Shown: positions 3,001 through 46,960 of the stretch, in pieces
Layout: the number at the start of each line of letters is the position of its first letter
How positions within the stretch are numbered: position 1 is the stretch's first letter
Origin: Anadara kagoshimensis
Taxonomy: Eukaryota > Mollusca > Bivalvia > Arcoida > Arcidae
Length of the DNA: 64,000 nt
Assembly: GCA_021292105.1 (NCBI GenBank)
Contig: CM037868.1
Span: 25,253,303 to 25,317,302 of the forward strand
Direction of reading: 5' to 3'
Notes under the pieces: model-generated
Told to the model about the DNA's origin: nothing
The model's database searches: none
Seen by the model: only the letters and a program-made list of their open reading frames with translations
Translations under genes and position numbers: made by a program

Positions 3001-6000
3001 CTTGACTGTAAAGTGAAACACCTCACTCCATTACAACGTCCTAGAATTGAACACCTCAATAAAAGTGAAATAATCTTGACTGTAAAGTGAAACACCTCAC
3101 TCCATTACAACGTCTAGAATTGAACACCTCAATAAAAGTGAAATAATCTTGACTGTAAAGTGAAACACCTCACTCCATTACAACGTCCTAGAATTGAACA
3201 CCTCGATAAAAGTGAAATAATCTTGACTGGGACGTGAAACACCTTACTCTATTACAACATCCTAGAATTGAACACCTAAATAAAAGTGAAATAATTTTGA
3301 CTGTAAAGTGAAACACCTCACTCCATTACAACGTCCTAGAATTGAACACCTCAATAAAAGTGAAATAATCTTGACTGTAAAGTGAAACACCTCACTCCTT
3401 TACAACGTCCTAGAATTGAACACCTCGATAAAAGTGAAATAATCTTGACTGTAAAGTGAAACACCTCACTCTATTACAACGTCCTAGAATTGAACACCTC
3501 AATAAAAGTGAAATAATCTTGACTGTAAAGTGAAACACCTCACTCCATTACAACGTCCTAGAATTGAACACCTCAATAAAAGTGAAATAATCTTGACTGG
3601 GACGTGAAACACCTTACTCCATTACAACGTCCTAGAATTGAACACCTCAATAAAAGTGAAATAATCTTGACTGTAAAGTGAAACACCTCACTATATTACA
3701 ACGTCCTAGAATTGAACACCTCAATAAAAGTGAAATAATCTTAACTGTAAAGTGAAACGCCTCACTCCATTACAACGTCCTAGAATTGAACACCTCGATA
3801 AAAGTGAAATAATCTTGACTGGGACGTGAAACACTTTACTCCATTACAACGTCCTAGAATTGAACACCTCAATAAAGTGAAATAATCTTGACTGGGACGT
3901 GAAACACCTTACTCCATTACAACGTCCTAGAATTGAACACCTCAATAAAAGTGAAATAATCTTGACTGGGACGTGAAACACCTTACTCCATTACAACGTC
4001 CTAGAATTGAACACTTCAATAAAAGTGAAATGATCTTCACTGTAGAGTGAAACACCTTACTCTATTACAACGTCCTAGAATTGAACACCTCGATAAAAGT
4101 GAAATAATCTTGACTGTAAAGTAAAACACCTCACTCCATTACAACGTCCTAGAATTGAACACCTCAATAAAAGTGAAATAATCTTGAATGGGATGTGAAA
4201 CACCATTACTCCACTACTCGCTAGAAATGACCGCCTCAATATAGCTTGACTGGAGCATAAAATAGCATTAATCTACTCCAACGTCCCAGAATCGACCTCC
4301 TAAATATAAGTTGAAAAATCTTGACTGTAGAATGAAACACCTTACTCCATTACAACGTCCTAGAATTGAACACCTCGAAAAAGTGAAATAATCTTGACTG
4401 GTACGTGAAACACCTTACTCCATTACAACGTCCTAGAATTCAACACCTCGATAAAAGTGAAATAATCTTGACTGTAAAGTGAAACACCTCACTCCATTAC
4501 AACGTCCTAGAATTGAACACCTCGATAAAAGTGAAATAATCTTGACTGTAGAGTGAAAGACCTCACTCCATTACAACGTCCTAGAATTGAACACCTCGAT
4601 AAAAGTGAAAAAATCTTGACTGTAAAGTGAAACACCTCACTCCATTACAACGTCCTAGAATTGAACACCTCAATAAAAGTGAAATAATCTTGACTGTAAA
4701 GTGAAACACCTCACTCCATTACAACGTCCTAGAATTGAACACCTCAATAAAAGTGAAATAATCTTGACTGTAAAGTGAAACACCTCACTCCATTACAACG
4801 TCCTAGAATTGAAACACCTCGATAAAAGTGAAATAATCTTGACTGTAAAGTGAAACACCTCACTCCATTACAACGTCCTAGAATTGAACACCTCGATAAA
4901 AGTGAAATAATCTTTACTGGGACGTGAAACACCTTACTCTATTTCAACGTCCTAGAATTGAACACCTCAATAAAAGTGAAATAATCTTGACTGTAAAGTG
5001 AAACACCTCACTCCATTACAACGTCCTAGAATTGAACACCTCAATAAAAGTGAAATAATCTTGACTGTAAAGTGAAACACCTCACTCCATTACAACGTCC
5101 TAGAATTGAACACCTCAGTAAAAGTGAAATAATCTTGACTGTAAAGTGAAACACCTCACTCCATTACAACGTCCTAGAATTGAACACCTCGATAAAAGTG
5201 AAATAATCTTGACTGGGACGTGAAACACCTTACTCTATTACAACATCCTAGAATTGAACACCTAAATAAAAGTGAAATAATTTTGACTGTAAAGTGAAAC
5301 ACCTCACTCCATTACAACGTCCTAGAATTGAACACCTCAATAAAAGTGAAATAATCTTGACTGTAAAGTGAAACACCTCACTCCATTACAACGTCCTAGA
5401 ATTGAACACCTCGATAAAAGTGAAATAATCTTGACTGTAAAGTGAAACACCTCACTCTATTACAACGTCCTAGAATTGAACACCTCAATAAAAGTGAAAT
5501 AATCTTGACTGTAAAGTGAAACACCTCACTCCATTATAACGTCCTAGAATTGAACACCTCAATAAAAGTGAAATAATCTTGACTGGGACGTGAAACACCT
5601 TACTCCATTACAACGTCCTAGAATTGAACACCTCAATAAAAGTGAAATAATCTTGACTGTAAAGTGAAACACCTCACTATATTACAACGTCCTAGAATTG
5701 AACACCTCAATAAAAGTGAAATAATCTTAACTGTAAAGTGAAACACCTCACTCCACTACAACGTCCTAGAATTGAACACCTCGATAAAAGTGAAATAATC
5801 TTGACTGGGACGTGAAACACTTTACTCCATTACAACGTCCTAGAATTGAACACCTCAATAAAAGTGAAATAATCTTGACTGGGACGTGAAACACCTTACT
5901 CCATTACAACGTCCTAGAATTGAACAACTCAATAAAAGTGAAATAATCTTGACTGTAAAGTGAAACACCTCACTCCATTACAACGTCCTAGAATTGAACA

Positions 6001-6235
6001 CCTCGATAAAAGTGAAATAATCTTGACTGGGACGTGAAACACTTTACTCCATTACAACGTCCTAGAATTGAACACCTCAATAAAAGTGAAATAACCTTGA
6101 CTGTAGAGTGAAACACCTCACTCCATTACAACGTCCTAGAATTGAACACCTCAATAAAAGTAAAATAATCTTGACTGGGACGTGAAACACCTTACTCCAT
6201 TTCAACGTCCTAGAATTCATCACCTTAATAAAAGT
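1..6235. repeat. Satellite I: ~74-bp tandem monomer array
   Basis: About 84 head-to-tail copies of a monomer averaging 74 bp fill this stretch and continue past the left edge. Recurrent landmarks in each monomer are TTGACTG, GTGAAACACC, ACAACGTCCTAGAATTGAAC and ATAAAAGTGAAATAATC. Variants alternate between TGTAAAGTGAAA and GGGACGTGAAA types, and between CTCAATA and CTCGATA. Short minus-strand open frames here are only readings of the monomer. The core CTCGATAWAAGTGAAA...TTGACTGGGACGT matches the 3' tail of the SINEs at 20345, 34193 and 52331, which suggests the satellite grew from a SINE tail. Confidence 0.97.
511..4910. repeat. Higher-order repeat (~1985 bp) within satellite I
   Basis: A divergent landmark beginning TCTTGAATGGGATG and containing CGCTAGAAATGACCGCCTC recurs at 511, 2197 and 4182. 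A second landmark, TCTTTACTGGG, recurs at 942, 2926 and 4911, a spacing of 1984 and 1985 bp. Landmark 1 to landmark 2 is 729 bp in copies 2 and 3 but only 431 bp in copy 1, so copy 1 lacks 298 bp, which equals four monomers. The array therefore evolved by duplication of blocks of about 27 monomers plus later loss of whole monomers. Confidence 0.9.
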
Positions 6236-6380
6236 AAAAGAAGCTTGACTGGGGCGTAAAACGCCATTACTCCACTCAACAGTCCCAGAATGTAGGGCTT
6301 TGATACAAATGAAAGAATCTTGAATGGGGTATAAACATCATTGCTATACTTTGCCGTCCCAGAACTGACCGCCTCGATAT
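6236..6380. repeat. Degenerate junction between satellites I and II
   Basis: Two or three diverged monomers containing CTTGACTGGGGCGTAAAACG and GACCGCCTCGATATAAGTG bridge the two arrays. They keep the SINE-tail-like core but not the 74-bp period, so they look like older or intermediate units. Confidence 0.6.
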
Positions 6381-7490
6381 AAGTGAAAGAATCTTGACTG
6401 GTTCTTAATACAGCATTCTACAGAACTGACCCCTCGATATAAGTGAAAGAATCTTGACTGGTTCTTAATACAGCATTCTACAGAACTGAACCCCTCGATA
6501 TAAGTGAAAGAATCTTGACTGGTCCTTAATACAGCATTCTACAGAACTGACCCCTCTATATAAGTGAAAGAATCTTGACTGGTTCTTAATACAGCATTCT
6601 ACAGAACTAACCCCCTCGATATAAGTGAAAGAATCTTGACTGGTTCTTAATACAGCATTCTACAGAACTGAACCCTCGATATAAGTGAAAGAATCTTGAC
6701 TGGTTCTTAATACAGCATTCTACAGAACTGAACCCCTCGATATAAGTGAAAGAATCTTGACTGGTCCTTAATACAGCATTCTACAGAACTGAACCCCTCG
6801 ATAAGTGAAAGAATCTTGACTGGTTCTTAATACAGCATTCTACAGAACTGAACCCCTCGATATAAGTGAAAGAATCTTGACTGGTTCTTAATACAGCATT
6901 CTACAGAACTGAACCCCTCGATATAAGTGAAAGAATCTTGACTGGTTCTTAATACAGCATTCTACAGAACTGAACCCCTCGATATAAGTGAAAGAATCTT
7001 GACTGGTTCTTAATACAGCATTCTACAGAACTGAACCCCCTCGATATAAGTGAAAGAATCTTGACTGGTTCTTAATACAGCATTCTACAGAACTGAACCC
7101 TTCGATATAAGTGAAAGAATCTTGACTGGTTCTTAATACAGCATTCTACAGAACTGAACCCCTCGATATAAGTGAAAGAATCTTGACTGGTTTTTAATAC
7201 AGCATTCTACAGAACTGACCCCTCGATATAAGTGAAAGAATCTTGACTGGTTCTTAATACAGCATTCTACAGAACTGACCCCCTCGATAAAAGTGAAAGA
7301 ATCTTGACTGGTTCTTAATACAGCATTCTACAGAACTGAACCCCTCGATATAAGTGAAAGAATCTTGACTGGTTCTTAATACAGCATTCTACAGAACTGA
7401 CCCCCTCGATATAAGTGAAAGAATCTTGACTGGTTCTTGATACAGCATTCTACAGAACTGACCCCCTCGATATAAATGAAAGAATTTTAA
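6381..7490. repeat. Satellite II: ~60-bp tandem monomer array
   Basis: About 18 tandem copies of a 60-61-bp unit, marked by GATATAAGTGAAAGAATCTT followed by GACTGGTTCTTAATACAGC and ATTCTACAGAACTGA. Copies are nearly identical, which implies recent amplification. The GATATAAGTGAAA...CTTGACTGG core is shared with satellite I and with the SINE tails, but the other half of the unit is different. Confidence 0.95.
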
Positions 7491-7762
7491 CTGGGTCCTA
7501 ATACAACATTCCTCCACTCAACCGTCCCTGAATGGACCGCCTCGATATAAGTAAAAGAATTTTTACTGGATCCGAAAATACCATTACTCCACTCAACAGT
7601 CCCTGATGTAAGTGAAAGAATTTTTACTGGATCCGAAAACACCATTACATGATCACTCAACAGTCCCTGAATTGACCGCCTCGATGTAAGTGAAAGAATT
7701 TTTACTGGTCCGAAAACACCATTACATCACTCAACAGTCTCTGAATTGACCGCCTCGATACA
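7491..7762. repeat. Degenerate satellite-edge units
   Basis: Four diverged units carry GACCGCCTCGATRTAAGTG, AAGAATTTTTACTGGATCC and CACTCAACAGTCCCTGA. They decay toward unique sequence at about 7763, as expected at an ageing array edge. Confidence 0.75.
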
Positions 7763-8045
7763 CAGAGGCGACAAGAAGTATTCGGACACTTTGTACGTAA
7801 AATCCATCTTTGTTTCATGTAAAACTTTTTTTTTTTTTAAATCTCAAAAAATTATTTCTTGGTCTATTTCCTTAAATTTTTCACAAATACATGTAAATTT
7901 TATATAATTTTTCTTAAAAATAATTAGAACAGAGAATTTCGTTGTTTTTTTATAGATAAAAAATTCAAATTCAACGAAAAATTTTTAAAATTGAAATATA
8001 TAATCATGCTTCATATGGTGGTTAAATATTTACCACGCTGTTCAC
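7763..8045. other. AT-rich spacer, no gene seen
   Basis: Poly-T and poly-A rich sequence between the satellite edge and a LINE fragment. No splice-consistent coding segment or repeat family was recognised. Confidence 0.5.
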
Positions 8046-8049
8046 CTTA

Positions 8050-8350
8050 TGTTTTCTTGACTGTTATAACCAACCTACCTATCCAGGTGGAGAGTAAGGT
8101 CAATACAAGGTTTCGCCATTCCAATCTGTTTTTTGCCTTCGTCTCAGCCTCTCCCCAAGTCAGCTGCAGATCTTTCAGTTGACCTTCTACAGTTCTTCGC
8201 CATGTTGTTTTTGGCCTTCCGCGATGTCTTTTCTCTTGGGGTGTCCATCTTAATGCTTCTTTAGTTATGCATTTCCCATTCTAAAATCATGCCCAAGCCA
8301 TTTAAACCTTCTTTGAGTGTTTTCGTCAATGATACATTTTGAATCTGTCA
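8050..8350 (-). pseudogene. LINE reverse transcriptase C-terminal fragment
   Basis: On the minus strand from about 8350 down to 8050 the translation reads RRFKWLGHDFRMGNA, then after a frameshift LRWTPQEKRHRGRPKTTWRR, followed by LTWGEAETKAKNRLEWRN and LVLTLLSTWIG. This is the characteristic C-terminal tail of non-LTR retrotransposon endonuclease-reverse transcriptases of the RTE-like kind in invertebrates (known family pattern). Only the last ~95 residues are present, with a stop and a frameshift near 8275, so it is a dead 5'-truncated insertion. The exact clade is inferred. Confidence 0.8.
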
Positions 8351-8562
8351 TTTTAAATAAGTTTGAATTTGATATGACTGTTATAAGACAGACAGTATTT
8401 TGAAAATTATTGGAAGAAACTACAACTAATTTTACATGTAACGGTGAAAAATTCATGGAAATTGGACAAGAAACAAAGAAATTTAAAAAAATTCTTTTTT
8501 ATCAATCATTGACAAGTTTTTCCGATTTTTCTAAGCTTGTTTTTTAAGTACGACCTTAGATG

Positions 8563-8745
8563 TACAGTCAAACCTGGTTATAGAGGCCACCCAAGGGAAC
8601 TAGTAAAAGTGGCCTTTATGGGCAGGTGGCCTTTATATACAGGTTCAAATAATAAGAATAAAGAACAATCGTGATACAATTCTACTGGCCTTTATAAGCA
8701 AGTGACCCTTATATAGAGGTGGCTTTTAAAGCAGGTTGGACTGTA
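8563..8745. mobile_element. MITE family A (TIR CAGTCAAACCTG, TA flanks), copy 1
   Basis: A 183-bp element begins TACAGTCAAACCTGG and ends CAGGTTGGACTGTA, giving terminal inverted repeats flanked by TA. That is the arrangement of Tc1/mariner-type non-autonomous elements. Internally it repeats GGCCTTTATA-type motifs (GTGGCCTTTATGGGCAGG, CTGGCCTTTATAAGC). No coding capacity. Related copies lie at 11506, 14634, 16562 (expanded, inverted) and 24063. Confidence 0.85.
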
Positions 8746-8755
8746 CACTCAAATA

Positions 8756-9149
8756 TTTACAATATGACTGTATCTCTCTTCGATGAAACACACAAAAGCA
8801 ATTGTATTTCAGTTCCCGTTGAAAGACAATAAGGGTCATGACCCTTGATGTGTATCAATTTTCCCGCAATATTACGTCATGTCTCACACAGGGGGTCACG
8901 TGATCATGTGAGATACTAAAAACCCTATATTACACGAGGAGATATGAAAAAAATAGCGCCAAGGTACAAAATATTTATTGTAAATATAAGAAATGACATT
9001 TCTGCTCATGGTATTTCAAGGGGTAATAAAAGATATTGTGGCGCGTGCCAAATTCAAAATGAAGGGCTTCGCCCCTCATCGAATTTGGCACGCACCACAC
9101 TATCTTTCATTACCCCTTGAAATACCATGATCAGAATGTCATTTCTTAG
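8756..9149. repeat. Foldback repeat, copy 1 (66-67-bp arms)
   Basis: Left arm 8989-9055 and right arm 9081-9146 are near-perfect inverted copies containing GGCGCGTGCCAAATTC and TCAAGGGGTAAT. They are separated by a 25-bp loop that itself holds a GGGCTTCGCCCC hairpin. The sequence 5' of the arms, from TTTACAATATGACTG through GTCACGTGATC, is shared with the second copy at 50572. The matched outer limits of both copies suggest a dispersed non-coding element. RNA read through it would fold into a long stem. Confidence 0.85.
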
Positions 9150-9393
9150 TCGAAGAAATATTTTAATTAACTACCATCGGAATTTGGATCGTAAATCATT
9201 ATATTATGTCGCCATCCTGTTACACGGTATTACACATATAAAAGTGAATTCTACATGTAGTACTAGCCAAATCGGATTACCCATTGATGTAAATTTGATA
9301 TTTTTTTCTATATGATGATGTAGTTAATGTAAATGTTTAAGAAGCTGAATAAATAGCATGACAACCTGTTTATTATAAAGGAAACTCTTAACA

Positions 9394-9451
9394 ATGGCAA
9401 ACGTGTTTATAGCTATTATTGTGTGTAGTGTAATCATTACAGCTGAAACAG
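9394..9451 (+). CDS. DUF3011-like gene, exon 1 (signal peptide)
   Basis: Encodes 19 residues from ATG at 9394, a hydrophobic leader ending ITAET, then one base of a split codon. The donor is ACAG|GTAATC at 9452. This exon end is the template of the tandem array that follows. Confidence 0.7.
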
Positions 9452-9471
9452 GTAATCTCTCATCCCCCCCC

Positions 9472-9519
<48 letters not shown>

Positions 9520-9613
9520 CACACACATAAACACACAAACATACACAGCTGAATTAGGTAATCTCTCACTCTCTCTCTCACACACACGCACATATACGCA
9601 GCTGAATTAGGTA

Positions 9614-9657
<44 letters not shown>

Positions 9658-9847
9658 CACACACATAAACACACAAACATACACAGCTGAATTAGGTAAT
9701 CTCTCACTCTCTCTCACACACACACGCACATATACGCAGCTGAATTAGGTAATCTCTCTCTCTATCTCTCTCTCTAACACACATATACATAGCTGAATTA
9801 GGTAATATTTCTCTCTTTCCTAACACACATATACACAGCTGAATTAG

Positions 9848-9893
<46 letters not shown>

Positions 9894-9976
9894 ACACACA
9901 TAAAGACACACATACACAGCTGAATAAGGTAATCTCTCTCTAAAGCACAAATATACACAGCTGAATTAAGGTAAAA

Positions 9977-10032
<56 letters not shown>

Positions 10033-12166
10033 AGAGTTTTTCCGAACATAATTTTTGAATGGAGATGTTAACCGGAGTTTTCAGAAAAAGGAATTCATAA
10101 ATGGCCAAGGAAATCGGAGTTTCCGGAATATACTGTTTGAAATGGCGAAGGAAACCGGAGGTTCCGGAATATGATGTTTAAATGGCAAAGGTTGCGGTTA
10201 TTTCGGAAATGCTGTTTAAATGGCAGAGGTTACAAGATTTTTTCGGAATATCATGTTTAAATGACGGAGGGTATTAGATTTTTTGGAATTTTATCTTTGA
10301 ATGGCGAAGGAAACCGAAGTTTTCAGTATGATTTTTGGGAATCCGAGTTCCCATGTATGATTTTTGAATGGCGCAAGTAACTGGATTTCGAATATGAATT
10401 TTCTGTCATAATAAAGGGTAGTTTTTTCGAATATCATGTTTGAATGGCAAGGAAATTGGAGTTTTTCGAATATAATTTTTGAAGAGAGAAGGAAACCAGA
10501 ATTTTCCGAATATGGTTTTAAACAGCGAAAAATGGGAGTATTTCGAATATGATTCTCGAATGACGGGGGTAAACGGAGTTTTTGCAAATCAAATATGATG
10601 CTCGAATAGCGAAGTTAACCGAAATTTTCCAAAACTGATTTTTTTGAATGGCAAAAAACCCGTAGTTTTCTGAATATGATGTTTGAATGCAAACATATTT
10701 TTTATATGATTATTGAATGCCGAACGAAACCAGAAATTTTTTAATATGAATTTTTGCGTCAGTTAATTTTCGCAATCTATTCGCGTATTTCAATTTTGGC
10801 GTCGTTGGATAATGAACAGTTAAAATCAAACAATATAAAAAATAATATATTCGATTTTTTTTTTAATTATCGCTTCTTGTAACTCGAATTTACACGAAAA
10901 ATAAACGAACGCGAAAATTCCCCGATTTATAGTACTTCCGTATCCGGTTTAAATACTCTCGATACCAAAATTAATGTCGAAGTCACTTTATTAGTGGCGC
11001 TAAATTATGCAAACATTTCAGAGAAAGGTCATAAAGTTGAATAAAGTCTTGATATGTTTCACATACCTTAATCTATATAACCGGTAAAACAAATACATAT
11101 TCGTGATAATCGTCACATACAGTGCATGTCTGTCGAAAGTTTAACATTGAGCTAACGAATCAGATTACATTGACCCATCGTAAGCCATATCTAAGCTGCT
11201 TTTCGATAGCTTTTTCTATCACATCTTTCGACAGCTTTTCGACCACTAGCTATCCATATCTCGAGCAATTGACAGATCGCCGGCCACGCCCACAATGTTC
11301 CGACAAAAACCTGGCATGCTTGAATTTCACTCAAAGGAACGAAAACTTGGCCTGAAGTAAGCCATTTAATGACGTCACTGATACTAGTACGTCATTAATT
11401 GCCGTGACGCGCTCCTTTTCTATCGCGATGGTAGCCTTTGTCGGAACATTGTGGGCGTGGCCGGCAATATGCCAATGGCAGTCGAGAGACCCGAATCCTT
11501 CTCGTTACACACTCAAACCTGTCTATAAAGGCCACTCAAGGAAACCAGTAAAAGTGGTCTTTATGGGCAGGTGGCCTTTATATATATATATACAGGTTCA
11601 AATATATTAATAAAGAACAATTGGGATACAATTCTACTGGCCTTTATCAGCAGGTGGCCCTTATATAGAGGCAGCCTTTAAGGCAGGTTGGACTGTAATT
11701 AGCCCAGCGTTAAAATTTCGACAAGAAGTGTCTTTAGCGTGCACTGAGGCACGGGGTCTTGGTTTTGAGTATCATCCGAAAGACTACCTTGTAATGAGCT
11801 TTTTACATCTCTAGTATAAGCAGGAAATGAAAATTTCCAAGTCCCGAGTGAGATTCGAACCCACAACCCTTGGCTTCGAAAACCAGTGTAGTAACGGGTA
11901 CATGTCGATTTCAATGTTCTTTGTCCAGTAAGAAGGACCAGATAAAGAGCGCTAACTGTGTCCAGTATACACTTCTGCAACCTCATCTATGGATGGTAAC
12001 GTCTCGATGTAAACAGTATACAAGTAGCTAAAGAACACATATAACTCTTTTAAGAGTGACATATTTATATATTTTATGTGTGCTAATAATGTTTTATATG
12101 TTGTTTATATTATGATGAGACTATAATAAAATGTATTATTATATTATAGAACGTCGGTGAGCAAAA

Positions 12167-12217
<51 letters not shown>

Positions 12218-13123
12218 ATTACACTTTTCGAAGTTTTAATCATAAAGAAACATCAAATTTTTAAACTACATTTTATATTTTATATCATCAGGAAGAAAAA
12301 GTACTTTTCAAATTCTACCACTAAATTATACATCACTTTTAATTTCACATAATTATATAAAAAAAATAAAAACCAAAAGAGTTGTTTATTCAAGATTATA
12401 ATGCATTATTTGTCCCTCAACCCGACAAAAGTATAAAAGTACAATGTGACAAGAAACAGAACGAAAGAAGCAGAGAACAAAACAAAACAACATAAGCATG
12501 GAATGCAAATTATAGTCCGTCAGCGATATTGTGACAGAGGGTTTATCAACATGGAAAACGCTTTTCAAAACGTTCCATACAGAAACGTTGGTAATTGGTT
12601 ACGTTGGTACGTACACGGCGAACCTCATTGGGTTATAGCCGCCGGCGTACGAAAGTCTATTAAGATCATAAACTTAAACAAATTAAAAGGCGAATAACGC
12701 CTTTTTCGCATTATAACGACTTAATTTCGCGTTATTACGCCTTTTATTTTTTATTCATGAACCTAATAGGCTGCCGTAGCGGCGTCATTCCACTGATGGA
12801 ATATGTCATGACTTTGCTCATGTATTTTAGCATCAATTTAGCAGATCGTAGCACATTGGTGTTTTTCACTGCCTTTTACAACTGCAAAAAATAGTGTGCG
12901 GCGACATTTAATGTAACAGCCACGTTTATATATAAGGCGACCATTACAAAGAGCATCAGTTTTTATGCACATGGTCTCTATAGGACCCGTTATGCCATAG
13001 TTAGTTGCCTGTTCGGGGCACATGGCTTAAACTAAACCACGAGGCGAACATGGATAGATTTGGTTATTTATATTTTTTCTGTAAATATCGAATGTACATC
13101 ATTCACTTGACGCAGTCGGGATT

Positions 13124-13155
<32 letters not shown>

Positions 13156-13202
13156 TTTGTAAATATCAAATGTACATCCATCTATCACTTGAAGCGGTCA
13201 TG

Positions 13203-13238
<36 letters not shown>

Positions 13239-13351
13239 TTTGTAAATATCAAATGTACATTTATCACTTGAAGCGGTCATGATTATTTATTTATTTATTT
13301 ATTTATTTTTCACTAAATATCAAATGTACATCAATTGTAGCAGTGAGAATT

Positions 13352-13403
<52 letters not shown>

Positions 13404-16400
13404 TTTTTCACTAAATATCAAATGTACATCAATCACTTGTAGCAGTCAGGATTATTATTTATTTATTTATTTATTTATTATTTATTTATTTTTCAGTTAA
13501 TATCAGATGTAAATCCATTACTTGTAGCAGTCGAGGACAAAAGTATAATCGATGTAAAGTACCCGGATCAATGTACGTCACAAATGTGACGATCCTGTCA
13601 CACAAATCGCCAAACAATCCCTGCTTCTACAGACAATCGTACGGGAAGTTTCTCGGCGATATATGGGCAGCACATGGGTGCAAAGCAAGGTTCAAAGTCT
13701 GTTTTAAACCAGGTACGTTACAATATTTACAGCGATACCCTTAACCCTCTTGTTGTCTAATAGTCCTCTGCCGATAACCAGGCCCACGTCTCTTAAGAGC
13801 CAAATAACCACGCCCCCAACATTTAATGTTTGGCCCGACCTTAACCTTTAATATATGACCCTGGCTCAAGGTCACGACACACCTTTAGACCATGGAGGTT
13901 ATAATTATTCATGTGGAGTTTTATGAAAGTCCTCCAAAGCAGCTATGAGATATGGCCCGGACACAATTTTACACAGACGGACAGACAGACATAGTGATTT
14001 CTATATATACCCCCTAACACTACTTTATGGGGTATAAAGAGCAAAATAACTTGATTTTAGTGTTTAATACATAATTTATATAAGTAAATTCTAACAGATT
14101 TTGTTCTTTTTAGTCCACAAAATAAATTTTTTTTGTTAACAATTGTGCTTGTCCGATAGCTTTAATACAAAGATTATTTAATTTAAACTTTTTCGAGATT
14201 AACGATTTTTAGAATGCATAAAAAAGAATTTTGAAAAGCTAAAATACATATTGAATTCATTTTGTCAGTTTTCAATTTGGCGGGAGTGGGGCTTGGTGTA
14301 TTATTTTTCGATTTATAAAACCTTACGGTACATACATACGACTGATTGATTGGTTGATTGGTTGATCAATTGATTGTTTGATTGATTGATTGATCAATTG
14401 ATTGATTGAATTTGTTTTACGTCCCAGTCAAAACTGTTTCAGTTTTATTAATGCGTCACCAGCTAAAGGAGCTATGGCAAAAATTTTGACTGTTACATTG
14501 CGTTCAGGACAGTTTACAGAAAGAGAGTTCTTTAGAGCGCTAGGTCTAAAATTACAAAAAGCATCGGAGTTTATGATCTCCTCGGGACCGTTTTGTCACA
14601 GTCGGATACCTGTTTTCGGACTAAATTGCAATGTACAATCCAACCTGTCTATAAAGGAAGTAAAAGTGGCTTTCATATACAGGTTCAAATGATATTAAAA
14701 GAGAACAATTTGGATACAATGCTAGTGGCCTTTATAAGCAAGTGGCCCTTATATAGAGGTGGTCTTTACGACAGACTGGACTGTATAACAGATTAGTTGA
14801 AATAACTTGTTTAATGTTGTAACCACAAGACGAACACGGTCAAAATCAGTTATATTATTTTGAGGGCGCGGTGGCCTAATGGATAAGACGTCAGTTCTCA
14901 AATCCAGGGTCTCTCAACGCTGTGAGTTCGAGTCCCACTTGGACCACATGTGGAAAAGTGAATTTCCCTTGCCGTTGGCCTTTACTGATTCACCTGGTAT
15001 CAGTATAATAGACTGGGGGAGTGGTACGCTTGTCTGCGGCGTACTGACTCTGTAAGCTAGCACAGTAAATTAAAGTCGCCCTGAGTGCGCGCTAGTACAA
15101 CACAGACCATACAACACACTCGCACTTCACATGCATAAACAAAATTGTTCATAGATTAATACACAGAGATTAATTAAACAGTTCTCGTCGCGAATAGCTG
15201 AAAAATCGCTAATGCGACGTTAAGCAACATTCAACCAACCAACCAAGTTATAATATTTTACAGAATGGTAACTTTTACATATATAAATCAGATACAGTTT
15301 TGACCTGTCAAAAGTTTAAAAATGAACCAGCAAAAAGATTTGAAGATTTGATGTTGAGTTGCTTAGATATGGATAGCTAACTGTTAAAAAATAAAATGCA
15401 GCTGGTATATCCGAAAAAAAAAACTCGTTATATAGGTATATCCGAAAAAAAACTCGTTATATAGGTAATGCGGAGTGAATAGCTATCAGTTTCGCACTAA
15501 GTGACGTATCGCCGGCCATACCTATTATGTTCCGACACTGGCCGCCATCACGGTACCAAAGCAGCGTCACGGCAACTAATGACGTACAAGTGTCTGTGAC
15601 GTCATTAAACGGCCGTCATTACGGTACCAAAGCAGCGTCACGGCAACTAATGACGTAATAGTGTCTGTGACGTCATTAAACGGTCTAGTTTTTATTCTTT
15701 TTGTGTATAAATCAAATATATCGGCCATCTGTCGGAACATTGTAGGCCTGACGGCGATCCATCAATTTGTTAAATTTTAAAAGTTAAACTTTCGACAGGT
15801 CTGTACGGTTTATGATACAGTCCCAAGTGGAAATCCCATCTACGGAACAAATTGAATATTTTTAAATTTTAATCAATAATAAAAGCACTAGATCTGAAAT
15901 TTTATTTCAACTCAAAGTTTGTCATAATATACGTTTCTAAACATAAAAATACACAGGTCAAAGGTCAATTATTTTAAAACATTTATCTATACATAAATTA
16001 CATTTACGTACAGTAGTGACGTCACCCACATTACATAAAATACTTCTTTTTTTTAAAATGGTAAGTATTGGAACATGCGGAAGAACAATTATGTGTAACG
16101 TATTTTTTTTCACTCAAGATTAAAAAATACTTTAAAGAAAATAATGTAGATTCAGTGAACAGGTGATGTGCACAACTTGAGGCGACGTCATCATGACGTA
16201 ATATTACTGTCTTGGTTTCTCGGATTGTCAGTTTGTTCCGTAGATAGGATTTCTACTTTGGACTGTCACAATTATGCTTCACCAGTGACTTACATTTCTA
16301 TATTTTAATTGTCACACAGGAACCAGTGTCGATATTGAATGTGAAAGCGCAGGTTACAAGCGACGGATATGCCCTGCTGGAGAAAGGAAAATTTACTTTG

Positions 16401-16522
16401 TCTCACTCCTAAAAACAAAGTCGGAGGACCCTTGTATACATAGTCATAGTTTTGGCAGATTTGGCAACTATATTTTTGTTGACCATGGGTGTCACGGTGT
16501 ATTTCGAGTTTTTCAGTATTAA
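9394..16522 (+). CDS. Secreted two-repeat DUF3011-like Cys protein (3 exons)
   Basis: Three coding segments, 9394-9451, 13497-13712 and 16320-16522, join with canonical GT-AG borders and matching phase (each junction splits a Gly/Val codon after base 1). Together they give 477 nt, or 158 residues plus TAA. Residues 1-17 are a hydrophobic signal peptide (MANVFIAIIVCSVIITA). Two ~65-residue repeats follow. Repeat 1 has C29, C39, C62, C81 and HGCKARFKV; repeat 2 has C99, C109, C130, C149 and VDHGCHGVFRV. Cys spacings are 10/23/19 and 10/21/19. The pattern CES..KRR.CPA...PC...G..G..I.VD.GC...F.V matches what is known of DUF3011 domains, whose function is unknown. Repeat 1 has an extra Cys at each end (C24, C88). 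Secretion is inferred. The ATG is chosen because it opens the signal peptide and is preceded by AACA. One domain per exon suggests growth by exon duplication. The transcript itself is not proven. Confidence 0.75.
9452..10030 (+). repeat. Tandem array built from the exon 1 splice-donor region
   Basis: Eight copies of CAGCTGAATTAGGTAATCTCTC-like sequence occur near 9547, 9599, 9687, 9737, 9789, 9838, 9919 and 9959. The last base of exon 1 and its donor (ACAGCTGAAACAG|GTAATCTCTC) match this unit. Copies are separated by long (TC)n runs, (CA)n runs and a poly-C run at 9463-9482. Most copies keep AG|GTAAT, so they remain plausible 5' splice sites. Open frames here, rich in Arg-Glu, are only the TC repeats read in reverse. 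Confidence 0.85.
10040..10760. repeat. Degenerate ~40-bp minisatellite
   Basis: About 17-18 diverged copies of a unit with GGAAACCGGAGTTTTCCGAA and TATGATTTTTGAATGGCGAA. Divergence and small indels are high, so this array is older than the satellites at the left edge. It lies inside intron 1 of the DUF3011-like gene. Open frames on the minus strand reflect its periodicity. Confidence 0.85.
11117..11500. mobile_element. MITE family B, foldback copy
   Basis: Begins TACAGTGCATGTCTGTCGAA and continues AGTTTAACATTGAGCTAACG, the family B terminus. Inside are perfect 29-bp inverted arms, 11279-11307 and 11437-11465 (GCCGGCCACGCCCACAATG and its complement), around a centre with AATGACGTCACTG. The right terminus is missing or cut by the adjoining MITE A copy. 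Other members lie near 15290, 17983 and 18875. Confidence 0.7.
11506..11697. mobile_element. MITE family A, copy 2
   Basis: Same family as the element at 8563: starts ACTCAAACCTGTCTATAAAG and ends CAGGTTGGACTGTA, with GTGGCCTTTATATATA inside. It lies directly against the minus-strand SINE that follows. Confidence 0.85.
11698..11992 (-). mobile_element. tRNA-derived SINE with Meta-like core (minus)
   Basis: On the minus strand a box-B-like GGGTTCGAATCTC lies at 11862-11850 (read as GAGATTCGAACCC on plus). Downstream come TTCGGATGATACTCAAAACC and CCCCGTGCCTCAGTGCACG, followed by CTAAAGAC. This resembles the Meta SINE core known from molluscs (GATGAGACGTAAAACC...CCCGTG...GCACGTTAAAGA). The head is degraded and no clear target duplication was found. 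Confidence 0.65.
12164..12219. repeat. (AAAT)n microsatellite
   Basis: About 13 units of TAAA/AAAT after GAGCAAAATAAATAAA. It may be the tail of a retroposed sequence beginning upstream. Confidence 0.9.
12220..13061. other. Intron 1 interior with two unproven short ORFs
   Basis: No gene can be supported. A plus-strand frame at 12446-12697 (83 codons) and a Cys-rich minus-strand frame at 13023-12838 (61 codons, seven Cys) are open but lack signal peptides and recognised domains. A short stem, AAAAGGCG...CGCCTTTT, lies at 12686-12707. Confidence 0.4.
13062..13496 (+). repeat. Tandem array built from the exon 2 acceptor region
   Basis: Five copies of TAAATATCAAATGTACATC followed by ATCACTTGTAGCAGTCAGG-type sequence start near 13082, 13160, 13243, 13314 and 13412. 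They are separated by (ATTT)n runs. Exon 2 itself starts TTAATATCAGATGTAAATCC ATTACTTGTAGCAGTCGAGG after TTATTTTTCAG, so the unit is a copy of the acceptor plus the first ~35 exonic bases. Copies read TTTTCACTAAAT or TTTGTAAAT where the true site reads TTTTCAGTTAAT, so the AG is absent from the decoys. Confidence 0.85.
13497..13712 (+). CDS. DUF3011-like gene, exon 2 (repeat 1)
   Basis: The acceptor TTATTTTTCAG ends at 13496 and the donor GTACGT starts at 13713. The 216-nt frame is open and encodes one complete Cys repeat, including YNRCKVPGSMYVTNV and IWAAHGCKARFKVCF. Phase is 1 at both ends, so the exon is symmetrical and could be duplicated or skipped without shifting the frame. Confidence 0.75.
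13713..14335. other. Intron 2, first part, no gene seen
   Basis: Begins with the donor GTACGT. It contains a repeat-like segment ending ACAGACGGACAGACAGACAT and then AT-rich sequence. No coding segment recognised. Confidence 0.5.
14336..14540 (-). mobile_element. SINE 3' portion with (CAAT)n tail (minus)
   Basis: On the minus strand the sequence reads AGCTGGTGACGCATTAATAA, then TTTTGACTGGGACGTAAAAC and a tail of CAATCAATCA repeats (14336-14410 on plus). It shares GCTGGTGACG and TTGACTGGGACGTAAAAC with the SINEs at 20345, 34193 and 52331. The 5' part is not clear. Confidence 0.65.
14634..14785. mobile_element. MITE family A, copy 3 (internally deleted)
   Basis: Starts TACAATCCAACCTGTCTATA and ends AGACTGGACTGTA. 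The internal CTAGTGGCCTTTATAAGCAA matches the family, but it is about 30 bp shorter than the copy at 8563. Confidence 0.8.
14862..15245 (+). mobile_element. tRNA-Arg-derived SINE with target duplication
   Basis: The head GGTGGCCTAATGGATAAGAC (box A) and GAGTTCGAGTCCC (box B) resemble tRNA-Arg. The tail reads AATAGCTGAAAAATCGCTAA and then TGCGACGTTAAGCAACATTC plus (AACC)n, a form common in mollusc SINEs. Flanks AGTTATATTATTTT (14848-14861) and AGTTATAATATTTT (15246-15259) form a 14-bp target duplication with one mismatch, so the element is full length (384 bp). It sits in intron 2 of the DUF3011-like gene, same orientation. Confidence 0.9.
15290..15815. mobile_element. MITE family B copy with 71-bp internal duplication
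   Basis: Left end GACCTGTCAAAAGTTTAAA, right end GTTAAACTTTCGACAGGTC followed by TGTACGG. Internal CACGGTACCAAAGCAGCGTC ACGGCAACTAATGACGTA is present twice, at 15551 and 15622. A short CCGAAAAAAAACTCGTTATA segment is also doubled near 15410 and 15442. Confidence 0.7.
16320..16522 (+). CDS. DUF3011-like gene, exon 3 (repeat 2, stop)
   Basis: The acceptor TTTTAATTGTCACACAG ends at 16319. The 203-nt frame encodes IECESAGYKRRICPAG through VDHGCHGVFRVFQY and ends in TAA at 16520-16522. Four Cys align with those of repeat 1. ATTAAA overlaps the stop; no strong AATAAA is close by, so the 3' end is uncertain. Confidence 0.75.
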
Positions 16523-16561
16523 ACGATTCCTTGTGTTGTATTTGTTTTTTTTCTTCTAAAA

Positions 16562-17955
16562 TACTCCCGACCTGCCTTAAAAGCCACCTGATCTCTATAT
16601 TAGGCTCACTTGCTTTAAAAAAAACCAGTAAAATTTTATCCCATTAGTCTTTATTTGTGTTATTTAATTTTCTATATATAAGAGTCAACTCGCCAAAAAG
16701 TGTACTTTACTAATCCCCTTTGGTTGCCTTTACTGATCCCCTTAGGGTTGTCTCTATTGGTCCCCTGGGGTTGTCTTTACTGACTCTCTTTGTTTGTCTT
16801 TACTGATCCCCTTAGTTGCCTTTACTGATCCCCTTGGTTTATCTTTCCTGGTCCCTTTGGGTTATCTTTACTCGTCCCCTGGGGTTGTCTTTACTGATCC
16901 CCTTGGGTTATCTTTACTGATCCGCTTGGACGCCTTTACTGATCCCCTTGGGTTATCTTTACTGATCCCTTTGGGTTGTCTTTACTGGTACCCTGGGGTT
17001 ATCTTTACTGATCCCTTTGGGTTGTCTTTATTTATTCCTTCGGTTGTCTTTACTGATCCGCTTGGATGCCTTTACTGATCCCCTTGGGTTGCCTTTACTC
17101 ATCCCCTTGGAGTGCCTTTACTGATCCCCTTGGGTTAGCTTTACTGATCCCTTTGGGTTGTCTTTATTTATTCCTTCGGTTGTCTTTACTGATCCGCTTG
17201 GGTTGCCTTTACTGACCCCCTGGGTTATATTAACTGTCTCTCTTTGTTTGCCTTTACTGATCCCCCTTGGGTTGCCTTTACTGATTCTCTTTGTTTGCCT
17301 TTACTGATCCCCTTGGGTTGTTCTTTATAGACATGTTTGACTGTATTCCCTTGGGTTGCCTTTACTGATCCCCTTGTGTTGCCTTTACTGATCCCTTTTG
17401 GTTGCCTTTATTGATCCCCTTGGGTTGCCTTTACGGATCCCCTTTGGTTGCCTTTATTGATTCCCTTGGGTTGCCTTTACTGACCCCCTTGGGTTGCCTT
17501 CACGGATTCATTTTAGTTGCCTTTTCTGATCCCCTTGGGTTGTCTTTACTGACCCCTTTGGTTGCCTTTACTGACCCCCTTGGGTTGCCTTTACTGATCC
17601 CCTTGGGTTGCCTTTACTGATCCCCTTGTGTTGCCTTTACTGATCCCTTTTGGTTGCCTTTATTGATCCCCTTGGGTTGCCTTTACGGATCCCCTTTGGT
17701 TGCCTTTATTGATCCCCTTGGGTTGCCTTTACTGACCCCCTTGGGTTGCCTTCACCGATTCATTTTAGTTGCCTTTTCTGATCCCCTTGGGTTGTCTTTA
17801 CTGACCCCTTTGGTTGCCTTTACTGACCCCCTTGGGTTGCCTTTACTGATCCCCTTTGGTTGCCTTTACTGATCCCCTTTGGTTGCCTTTACTGATCCCC
17901 TTGGGTTGTCTTTACTGATACCCTTGGGTTGTCTTTATAGACAGGTTTGACTGTA
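16562..17955 (-). mobile_element. MITE family A copy inflated by ~25-bp internal minisatellite
   Basis: The element starts CCTGCCTTAAAAGCCACCTG and ends ATAGACAGGTTTGACTGTA, i.e. family A in inverted orientation. The normal segment TTTTACTAGTTCCCTTGGGT GGCC (complement of the 8563 copy) has become about 50 tandem units of TTTACTGATCCCCTTGGGTT GCC, enlarging a ~185-bp element to ~1.4 kb. A 252-bp block (about ten units) is itself duplicated, with copies starting near 17352 and 17604. A second terminus-like TTTATAGACATGTTTGACTG lies inside at 17313-17332. Open frames rich in DPLGL are the minisatellite in translation. Confidence 0.85.
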
Positions 17956-28584: not shown

Positions 28585-30535
28585 ATGGCCGAACAGCAGA
28601 AAGTAGATATTTTTAAATGCGGCATTTGTTCAATGACTCTGGATGTTCCAAAAAGGTTAGCATGTCTTCATAATTTCTGTCAGTCATGTTTATGTCAACA
28701 TATAGAGAAAGCAACAGCGACCCAGATTGTTGATGAACGTCATAACCAGTTCCGGTGCCCGGTATGTAAAACCATTATCCAACTTCCAGATAAGGCCACG
28801 CCGTCGTTGTATGTTAATAGCCTTCCAACTAATAACTTGCTTCAAGCATTAATCCAGAGGAAGAAAGTCAAACCCGGAGAGGAAAATTGTGCCTGGTGTC
28901 TACACAAGGGACAAAAACAGCAAGCTGAAGTATGGTGTGACGAATGCAGTGAAGGATTATGTAAAGAGTGCTCAGAATTCCAAAAAAATTAAAAATTTGA
29001 AATCGCACGAATTAATCCGCATTGAAGATGTAGAAAATTTAAACATAAAACTACACTTTGAAATCCATTGTCCAGAACACAAAGGGAAGAATATCGAAAA
29101 TTTTTGCCATGATCATCAGACAACCCACTGTTCTTCATGTTTTACTGATTACCACAGGAAATGCACAAACGTGGCAACGATTGAAAAGGTATCTAAAGAT
29201 CAGGAGCAGAGTATATCAGACCTCATGGAAACAATCCAAGACATAATTGTTATTGCCAATGACTTCCTTGACGAGAGATATCGTAACTGTAGAGAGATAG
29301 AAAAAGAAAGAAGAGAGGTAATTGAGAAAATACGTTTTCTACGGAATGAAATCGTTGTTCACCTGGAGAAATTAGAGACAGATTTCCAGCATATGTTTGA
29401 TGAAAATCATGCCAAGATCAAAAAAGATATTGAGGATGAAATAGAAGTTTGCAGTAACCATAGAGCGATAGTAACCAATTGTAAGGAACTTCTTTCTCTA
29501 TCAGTTACCCATTCATCAGACGAAAATGTATTTACTGAGAAGCAAATAATTGAAAAGAAGATCAAGGAAGCGATGGAACTGGTAAAGCAACTAACAGCTG
29601 AAGCAAAGATGAGACGGTATGAAATTGAACTGGCACCGGAATTGGTAAATTTAACCAAACGTGTTACCTCCCTTGGAAATGTCAATAATACTCTTGGTAC
29701 AACGGTGCAACTTACACTTCAGCCATTACAGAAATTACCAAGTAGTTGTCACAAGCCCACCAAACACTACAATGCACAACATGTATTAAGCTTCAATCCA
29801 GAGAAATTTCCAGCAGGATATATTCACGGTGCAAAGATACTTAACGATGGGCGAATACTACTGACGAATTATAATAGTAAACTTCTACTTATCTTTGATA
29901 AAACAGGGAATCTGAAAAAAGAAATAAGTCTAACAGGTGAACCATGTGATGTTACTATGATCAGTGATAAAGAAGCTGCTGTGTCATATTGGTTACCTAA
30001 AGGTATAGCTGTTATAGATATCATCACGGGGAATATCAAACAAAATAACATCATGAAGAACCCTGATACCCGAGTATGTGGTATTACATCAGATGGTGTA
30101 AAACTTGTTGCTGCTTGTAAAGATAAAATACTTGTCATGGACAAAACTGGATCCATAATCAGAGAAATCAAAACGTCGAACACTGATAATCAACGGTACT
30201 TATGTTTTGTAGCTGACACAAGATTGTGTTACAGTAACAGAGATCCTCATTCAGTTCATTGTATTGATCTTGATGGTTCAGAAGTCTTTGAATACAAACA
30301 TAATTATCTTAGATGTCCATACGGTATTACATGTGATGATGAAGGTGTGATATACGTGGCTTGTAATTGGTCACACAATGTCCACCAACTGTCACCCGCT
30401 GGTGACTTAACTAAAATTTTATTTTCAAAAGAAACTGGAATAGAAAAACCTTTAGCCATAAATTGTAACACAAATACAAAAAAACTTATACTTACTCATT
30501 CAGAAAAAACAATTTCAGTTTATTCCCTAAAGTAA
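28585..30535 (+). CDS. TRIM-type RING/B-box/coiled-coil/NHL-like protein, frameshifted
   Basis: Paralogue of the intact gene at 44999. The first frame (28585-28992) encodes RING Cys/His pairs (FKCGIC, CLHNFCQSC, CPVC) and the first B-box (CAWC...CDEC...CKEC). It then hits TAA at 28990. The second frame, open to TAA at 30533-30535, encodes the second B-box (CPEH...FCHDH..HCSSC), a coiled coil and a C-terminal beta-propeller-like region (GAKILNDGRILLTNYN, LCFVADTRLCYSNRD). Against the paralogue, an A-rich stretch near 28980 is 2 bp shorter (19 versus 21 bases after TTC), which explains the shift. No other stop breaks the 650-codon frame, so the lesion is recent or is a homopolymer sequencing error. 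Proteins of this family are E3 ubiquitin-ligase candidates; activity is inferred. If real, only a 135-residue RING and B-box 1 peptide is made. AATAAA lies at about 30722. Confidence 0.85.
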
Positions 30536-44998: not shown

Positions 44999-46960
44999 AT
45001 GGCTGAAAAGACTGAAGAAGACCATGCTGATACTTTTAAATGCGGCATTTGTTCAAAGATTCTGGATGTTCCAAAAAGGTTAGCATGTCTTCACAATTTC
45101 TGTCAATCCTGTATATGTCGACATATAGACAATATCATAGCGACTCAGGTTGATGATGAATGTCAAAACCAGTTCCCTTGTCCGAGTTGTAAAACCATTA
45201 TCCATATTTCTGACAAGGTCACAACATCTATATATACCAATAACCTACCAACTAATCACTTGATTGAAACATTAATCCAGAGGAAGAGAATCAAACCCGG
45301 GGACGAAATTTGCGCCTGGTGTCTACACAAGGGACAAAAACAGCTAGCTGAAGTATGGTGTGACGAATGCAGCGAAGGATTGTGTAAAGAGTGCTCGAAA
45401 TTCCACAAGAAAAATAAAACTTTGAAATCGCATAAATTAATCCGAATTGAAGATGTAGCAAACTTTAACACAAAACTACATTTTGAAATCCATTGTCCAG
45501 AACACAAAGAGAAGATTATCGAGAATTTTTGCCATGATCATCAGACAACCTGCTGTTCATCATGTTTTACCGATTACCACAGGAAATGCAAAAACGTGAC
45601 CACTATCGATAAGGTATCTAAAGATCAAGAGCAGAGTACATCAGTCCTCATGGTGACAATCCAAGACATACTTGTTATAGCCAATGACTTCCTTAACGAG
45701 AGATATCGTAACTGTAGAGAGATAGAAAAAGAAAGAAGCGAGGTAATCGAGAAAATACGATCACTACGGAATGAAATCGTTGTTCACTTGGAGAAATTAG
45801 AGAAAGATTTCCAGCAGATGTTTGATGAGAACCATGCCAAAATCAAAAGAGAGATTGAAGATGAAATAGAAGTTTGCAGTAACCATAGAGCGATAGTAAC
45901 CAATTGTAAGGAACTACTTTCTCTGTCAGTTACCCATTCATCAGACGAAAACACATTTACCGAGAAGCAAATAATTGAGAAGAAGATCAAGGAAGAGATG
46001 GAACTGGTGAAGCAACTAACAGCCGAGCAAAAGATGAGACGGTACGAAATAGATCTGGCTCCAGAATTGGTCAATTTTACCAAACGTGTTACTTCCCTTG
46101 GTAATGTCAATACTACCATCGGTACAACGGTACAACTTACACTTCAGCCATTCCAGAAATTACCAAGTAGTGGTCACAAACCTACCAAACACTACAATGT
46201 ACAACATATATTAAGCTTCAATCCAGAGAAATTTCCAGCAAAGAGAATCCATGGTGCAAAGATACTTAACGACGGGCAAATACTACTGACGAATTATAAT
46301 AGTAAACTTCTACTTATCTTTGATAAAACAGGGAATCTGAAACAAGAAATAAATCTGCCAGGTAATCCACGTGATGTTACAATGATCGGTGATCAAGAAG
46401 CTGCTGTGTCATATAGGTCACCTAATGGTATAGCTGTTGTAGATATAATCACGGGAAATATCATACAAAATAACATCATGAAGAACACGGATATTAAAGT
46501 ATGTGGTGTAACATCAGATGGAGTAAAGCTTGTTGCTGCTTGTGAAGATAAAATACTTGTCATGGACAAAACTGGATCCATAATCAGAGATATCAAAACG
46601 CCGAACTCTTCTGCTAAGCGGTACTTATGTTTTGTAGCTGACACAAGATTGTGTTACAGTGACATAGATCCTCATTCAGTTCATTGTATTGATCTTGATG
46701 GTTCGAAAGTCTTTACATACAAACATAAAGATCTGATATTCCCATACGGCATAACTTGTGATGATGAAGGTGTGGTATACGTGGCTGGTTTTAAATCACA
46801 TAATGTCCACCAACTGTCACCCGCTGGTGACTTAATTAAAATTTTATTTACAAAAAAATCCGGAATAGAAAATCCCTTGGCTATAGATTGTAACACAAAT
46901 ACAAAAATGCTGATACTTACTCATTCAGAAAAAACAATTTCAGTTTATTCCTTAAAGTAA
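44999..46960 (+). CDS. TRIM-type RING/B-box/coiled-coil/NHL-like protein, intact
   Basis: Intact 653-residue frame in a single exon. RING, C3HC4 type: C15, C18, C30, H32, C35, C38, C61, C64. B-box 1 spans C105-H136 (CAWC, CDEC, CKEC). B-box 2 spans about 164-202 (CPEHKEK, FCHDH, CCSSCFTDYHRKC). An amphipathic coiled coil rich in Glu/Lys covers about 207-345. A C-terminal beta-propeller-like region, about 395-653, has repeated motifs such as GAKILNDGQILLTNYN and LIFDKTGNL, as in TRIM2/TRIM3/TRIM71-like or mollusc TRIM proteins. The domain order predicts an E3 ubiquitin ligase, cytoplasmic, with the propeller binding the partner (inference). The ATG directly precedes the RING and is conserved in the paralogue. 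AATAAA lies at 47148 and 47161. It is a copy of the gene at 28585 by tandem duplication, same strand. Confidence 0.95.
   Translation: MAEKTEEDHADTFKCGICSKILDVPKRLACLHNFCQSCICRHIDNIIATQVDDECQNQFPCPSCKTIIHISDKVTTSIYTNNLPTNHLIETLIQRKRIKPGDEICAWCLHKGQKQLAEVWCDECSEGLCKECSKFHKKNKTLKSHKLIRIEDVANFNTKLHFEIHCPEHKEKIIENFCHDHQTTCCSSCFTDYHRKCKNVTTIDKVSKDQEQSTSVLMVTIQDILVIANDFLNERYRNCREIEKERSEVIEKIRSLRNEIVVHLEKLEKDFQQMFDENHAKIKREIEDEIEVCSNHRAIVTNCKELLSLSVTHSSDENTFTEKQIIEKKIKEEMELVKQLTAEQKMRRYEIDLAPELVNFTKRVTSLGNVNTTIGTTVQLTLQPFQKLPSSGHKPTKHYNVQHILSFNPEKFPAKRIHGAKILNDGQILLTNYNSKLLLIFDKTGNLKQEINLPGNPRDVTMIGDQEAAVSYRSPNGIAVVDIITGNIIQNNIMKNTDIKVCGVTSDGVKLVAACEDKILVMDKTGSIIRDIKTPNSSAKRYLCFVADTRLCYSDIDPHSVHCIDLDGSKVFTYKHKDLIFPYGITCDDEGVVYVAGFKSHNVHQLSPAGDLIKILFTKKSGIENPLAIDCNTNTKMLILTHSEKTISVYSLK

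Follow-up and report, generated by a model that had tools for sequence, protein, structure and literature searches.

The window analysed here, a 64,000-nucleotide stretch of the Anadara kagoshimensis genome (C12:25253303-25317302 in genome coordinates), contains a three-exon gene whose exons join at GT/AG splice sites, both introns being in phase 1, to give a product of 158 aa as read from the sequence (Table 1). A preliminary description had proposed this gene, and all of its coordinates (exons, ATG, donor after 9451, stop codon and the length of 158 aa) proved exact, as did the canonical splice sites with their agreement in phase and the cysteine spacings of 10/23/19 and 10/21/19. A GT/T-rich stretch at approximately 16530-16556, recognised by inspection, lies downstream of the candidate polyadenylation signal. 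Directly 3' of the gene, positions 16705-17937 are occupied by a large minisatellite with a 23-base unit (CTTTACTGATCCCCTTGGGTTGC), which is also present in the near-copy of the gene described below.

Table 1. Parts of the gene and repeat arrays within intron 1, in positions of the window.
Feature	Position	Strand	Description
Candidate TATA box TATAAAAG	9237..9244	+	157 bases 5' of the ATG; predicted by motif scan
Exon 1	9394..9451	+	58 bases; ATG at 9394 and predicted signal peptide MANVFIAIIVCSVIITAET; phase-1 end at CAG/GTAATC
Intron 1	9452..13496	+	4045 bases, GT-AG, phase 1
Donor minisatellite	9537..9982	+	8 degenerate copies of the exon-1 end and 5' splice site, set in CT/CA repeats
Acceptor minisatellite	13074..13451	+	5 copies of a unit spanning the 3' splice site region and roughly the first 40 exon-2 bases, set in TTTA repeats
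Exon 2	13497..13712	+	216 bases; DUF3011 repeat 1 (C24, C29, C39, C62, C81, C88); phase 1 at both ends
Intron 2	13713..16319	+	2607 bases, GT-AG, phase 1
Exon 3	16320..16522	+	203 bases; DUF3011 repeat 2 (C99, C109, C130, C149); stop codon 16520-16522
Candidate polyadenylation signal ATTAAA	16518..16523	+	overlaps the stop codon; predicted by motif scan

Elsewhere in the window, a TRIM-like gene at 28588-30535 is divided between two frames, with an overlap at 28853-28989; one ORF has a RING domain, and the following one matches B-box and NHL weakly. By contrast, the similar gene found at 45002-46957 forms a single long ORF. Furthermore, the last ORF of a three-ORF run at 47422-48459 matches DUF3504 weakly (28.2 bits, just short of the cut-off of 29.7; E 2.2e-6), and this run may stem from a mobile element of the tyrosine-recombinase type.

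The product as a whole matches the Pfam family DUF3011 (PF11218, curated cut-off 25 bits) with 65.6 bits (E 7.5e-18, residues 27-155), so that the profile search suggested in the preliminary description places it well within the family; repeat 2, encoded by exon 3, also passes alone (37.9 bits, E 2.3e-9), and repeat 1, encoded by exon 2, narrowly misses with 24.7 bits. The two repeats share 35% identity (tblastn) and recover one another in six-frame searches of the window (E 6.6e-8 and 2.1e-7), in which neither of them detected a third DUF3011 exon. In the mature protein, repeat 1 accounts for six cysteines, counting those at its edge, and repeat 2 for four, and the four-cysteine pattern of DUF3011 with its terminal GC-x3-F is found in both repeats (C, C, C, GC and F). 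The two residues after the Trp, VD in most relatives, are AA in repeat 1 of the window gene and its near-copy; repeat 2 of the window gene has kept VD. By the boundaries of the DUF3011 profile, 11 residues link the two repeats. Structure prediction, likewise suggested earlier and run on repeat 2, yielded a confident all-beta AF2 model of a 66-residue domain (pLDDT 95.9, pTM 0.81), and for a bacterial two-repeat relative AF2 predicted two confident domains on a loose linker (pTM 0.54). Since no solved structure of the DUF3011 class turned up in sequence searches and the predicted domain is both small and confident, the repeat represents a tractable structural target.

In the original gene claim, the signal exon was the least secure element. 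Among 48 phase-1 ATG..GT pairs at 5000-13300, exon 1 is the only one to pass a combined donor and hydrophobic-core filter, which four such pairs, exon 1 included, pass in the whole window on both strands. Its hydrophobic core, scoring 3.32 in this simple hydropathy filter, corresponds to the secretion signal of AKL/ADEL-type lectins. The proposed signal exon is supported by the filter, and in addition by its identity in the near-copy and by the phase-1 signal exons upstream of the repeats in related loci.

These relatives are numerous. In the genome searched (1.115 Gb, 36 contigs), the DUF3011 profile gave at least 26 exon-level matches, and none in 14 control genomes; with the 158-aa protein as query, the genome returned at least 43 matches. 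The DUF3011 matches are densely clustered at C12:14.92-15.44 Mb, and further ones occur as a pair on C8, as a group on C2 and elsewhere. Nineteen regions were fetched, 11 with two repeats and 8 with one, and a phase-1 signal exon lies upstream in nine of ten two-repeat regions, the near-copy not being counted; none was found at the two-repeat locus L133. All ten genes that were modelled (the window gene, its near-copy and eight paralogues) consist of a signal exon and two repeat exons separated by phase-1 introns. The preliminary description was right about the gene, which is, moreover, not isolated but one of a large family. Single-repeat, lysine-rich DUF3011 domains at C2:27790051-27822780 (L140-L143) form a separate long branch, apart from the genome's other repeats.

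None of the exons is a long ORF, and intron 1 is rich in simple repeats, where assemblies err, so that open segments joined by chance or an artefact of assembly might be suspected. However, both repeats match the profile independently, nine other modelled loci share the architecture, and one of these, the near-copy, has a near-identical exon set, which leaves such an origin of the exons scarcely conceivable. Given the Pfam score, the near-copy and the paralogues of matching architecture, the proposed three-exon gene is confirmed at the sequence level as real, beyond chance.

The near-copy (C12:25053032-25059918; L129, L148) lies inverted about 203 kb away and comprises the gene together with its flanks. 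It retains all three exons and every splice site, exon 1 being identical at 58/58 bases. An intron 2 segment (14938-15246 in the window) is flipped between the two genes. Their coding sequences differ at 10 of 477 sites, without indels, and seven of these changes are silent and three replace an amino acid, as compared to 24% silent changes expected (p 0.003); the resulting dN of 0.0081 and dS of 0.072 correspond to a dN/dS of 0.11. Non-coding DNA, compared without the tandem arrays (in which 64 of 2134 sites differ), differs at 247 of 6082 sites (4.1%) versus 2.1% in the exons (p 0.016), and the 48 gap openings are all non-coding (p 0.027). The conservation of the exons above non-coding DNA is modest, and the window gene shows signs of purifying selection. 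The pair shares 44-47% protein identity with the six intact paralogues, among which (C12/C8 cluster) dN/dS ranges from 0.13 to 0.91. By this range, constraint on the wider family is weaker. No dS value was returned between the window gene and the cluster genes, which we read as saturation.

Overlooked in the preliminary description, both ends of intron 1 are minisatellites made of the adjoining exon-intron junctions. In the window gene, the GT is kept in all eight copies of the donor array and the AG in none of the five copies of the acceptor array; the near-copy has six donor and five acceptor copies, so that in both genes together GT stands in 14/14 donor copies and AG in 0/10 acceptor copies. 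An exact 17-mer of the donor unit occurs six times and an exact 18-mer of the acceptor unit eight times in the genome, always within the window gene and its near-copy, these being exact matches beside which diverged copies may exist elsewhere. At the threshold applied, the eight modelled paralogues elsewhere have no junction arrays. As a rough control of the donor array, the same scan was run with random 33-mers, and one of 100 drawn gave at least four matches in the intron; draws of low complexity were skipped but still included in the 100, so that the number actually tested may be lower. On a plain reading, the arrays grew by slippage at both exon edges, and decoy acceptors would be tolerated only when dead. 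As the copies within an array are not independent, the pattern of kept GT and lost AG serves as a lead rather than as a test. The arrays offer a clean natural case for asking how the spliceosome chooses one donor among nine look-alikes.

The eight decoy donors trailing exon 1, whose use would make exon 1 end at 9557, 9610, 9695, 9748, 9801, 9847, 9928 or 9970 and in each case lead to a premature stop codon, make it more plausible that the gene is a silent or decaying copy, no longer correctly expressed, in a family whose members are often duplicated and lost. Frame-shifted paralogues are a sign that genes of this family die: six of the eight modelled paralogues, and thus eight of the ten genes, are intact, and L136 and L147 have frame shifts in exon 3 and were left out of the dN/dS comparison on account of their broken frames; L133, which like L137 stands outside the ten modelled genes, is shifted in exon 2, and some fragments within the cluster contain stops. 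The window gene itself, however, has an open frame, whole splice sites, the low dN/dS towards its near-copy and no coding indels, and the array, being common to both genes, has been tolerated since before they split. Decay is therefore a very improbable reading of this locus.

A bolder proposal, which we put forward as a long shot, is that DUF3011 constitutes a compact glycan-binding fold passed between bacteria and lophotrochozoans and deployed here as a multigene recognition repertoire, and that the duplicated junctions of the gene pair act as a length-variable splicing switch, whose decoy donors would divert transcripts into stop-bearing, non-productive forms and so tune lectin output. The near-copy and the intact and broken paralogues provide a usable test of DUF3011 proteins as such a diversified repertoire. 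One exon per repeat with phase-1 introns is the building plan shown in this genome, and it favours the gain and loss of repeats.

As to function, a profile built from four paralogous proteins found the lectin ADEL of Aplysia californica as the best of 208 matches (E 6.2e-35), and ADEL lectins are the closest named relatives among the 120 matches listed, which also comprise 'ADEL-like' proteins of Mya arenaria, Mercenaria mercenaria and Lingula anatina as well as many bacterial DUF3011 proteins. A search with the single protein sequence returned no relative at E<=0.001; aligned pairwise with A. californica ADEL, it has 30% identity over 142 columns (E 3e-15). Taken together, these comparisons show the kinship of the predicted protein to this lectin. 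An additional pair of cysteines at the repeat edge (one before strand 1, one in FxVC) links it to several molluscan proteins: C24 and C88 of repeat 1 align with the pair in Aplysia repeats 1 and 2, and the pair also occurs in a rhinophore protein of A. dactylomela, in Mercenaria and in Bulinus repeat 1. It is absent from the last repeat of both the Aplysia protein and the window protein, from the Lingula repeats and from Bulinus repeat 2, and the Mya repeats share only the second cysteine in register.

The Aplysia kurodai egg lectin AKL, with three DUF3011-like repeats, was reported in 2017 to bind galacturonic acid, and its authors regard it as the first member of the DUF3011 family for which a function is known (PMC5484111). 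Antibacterial and antifungal activity is reported for an Aplysia egg lectin of 40 kDa assigned to the same family (PMC8306185, PMC13027682), a review from 2026 names the 'DUF3011 family' among marine lectins (PMC13027682), and a survey of six rotifer species counts zero DUF3011 lectins (PMC8878817), which suggests that the family is patchy. The earlier statement that DUF3011 proteins have no established function is therefore out of date. Moreover, databases label molluscan and brachiopod members 'lectin ADEL' or 'ADEL-like', including those of Mya arenaria, Mercenaria mercenaria and a 162-aa two-repeat Lingula protein, so that neither the family nor the small two-repeat form, which had been presented as a candidate novelty, is new. 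The suggestion of a lectin-like molecule fared better, as it is supported by the kinship to the ADEL/AKL lectins. Judged by its sequence, the window gene is a new member of an already known lectin family, and with the loci described here a lectin class that has received little study gains a well-supported gene family.

We consider it probable, with fair assurance, that the three exons make up a working gene whose small, secreted product belongs to the DUF3011 (AKL/ADEL lectin) family and binds glycans, this product most likely being a disulfide-braced, two-domain glycan binder from a multigene family. The signal peptide encoded by exon 1 would direct it into the secretory path, and each repeat may fold independently as a six-stranded beta domain. 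By spacing and conservation, a family-wide disulfide would join C62 to C81 and C130 to C149, one of bacterial type C29 to C39 and C99 to C109, and an edge disulfide, common to several molluscan relatives, C24 to C88 in repeat 1 only. The H-type lectins, which have the Helix agglutinin fold, form a six-stranded antiparallel beta-sandwich. With one putative sugar site in each repeat, and hence one binding unit per exon, the protein could cross-link glycans of acidic or galactose type, whether these are carried by microbes or by the surfaces of the animal's own eggs or mucus. As repeat 1 has AA in place of VD, binding may fall mainly to repeat 2, and without dimerisation the protein may be nearly monovalent. 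Glycan binding as such we infer from kinship, and the type of sugar, uronic acid or galactose, is suggested by the Aplysia lectins alone.

The same replacement of VD in repeat 1 can also be seen as a mark of a DUF3011 protein that no longer binds sugar and has a structural or other extracellular role, for example, as a component of egg coats, mucus or the shell matrix. In addition, all nine repeats compared from this genome are without the Trp and Asp that the bacterial repeats have in WGYD, and in the literature found, measured activity of animal DUF3011 proteins comes from Aplysia only. However, repeat 2 has retained VD, selection apparently maintains the sequence, and sugar binding is the only biochemistry measured for the family in that literature. 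We therefore regard a non-binding role as rather unlikely and prefer the secreted glycan binder.

Among known systems, the Aplysia AKL/ADEL egg lectins come closest, as they likewise combine a signal with tandem DUF3011 repeats, the family-wide cysteine pair and the edge pair, and the sequon N49-V-T of the window protein falls in the alignment column of N-M-T in A. californica repeat 1. They differ from it in having three repeats rather than two, at about 30% identity, and in lacking the bacterial-type C-x9-C pair, which the window protein keeps and the three Aplysia repeats do not. As it has two repeats and no third exon, we file it as DUF3011/ADEL-like and not as an AKL-type three-repeat lectin; the gene places the signal on one exon and each repeat on one exon. 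The ADEL-like proteins of Mya arenaria, Mercenaria mercenaria and Lingula anatina (186, 88 and 162 aa), for which literature searches found no measured function, are akin to it in size and have one or two repeats, those of Mya and Lingula two as in the window protein, but their sequences diverge (36, 39 and 30% identity over the parts aligned in the search with the four paralogous proteins). The bacterial DUF3011 proteins (Xanthomonas, Lysobacter, Competibacter, Acidobacteriota) carry one to five repeats per ORF among the 120 ORFs listed, with C-x9-C...C-x18-C and GIWVD-GCRA-F, conservation at GIWVD-GCRA being biased because this motif served to select the bacterial repeats. Their DTRGGV, WGYD and WVD motifs are kept only partly in the window repeats, and no edge cysteine pair was seen in the bacterial repeats listed. 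Bacterial linkers span 11-30 residues in 106 neighbouring pairs (counted up to 30), and that of the window protein lies at the short end. The seven bacterial DUF3011 ORFs shown start with a hydrophobic stretch, and a relative from Competibacter (L046) shares with the window protein its layout of a signal followed by two repeats.
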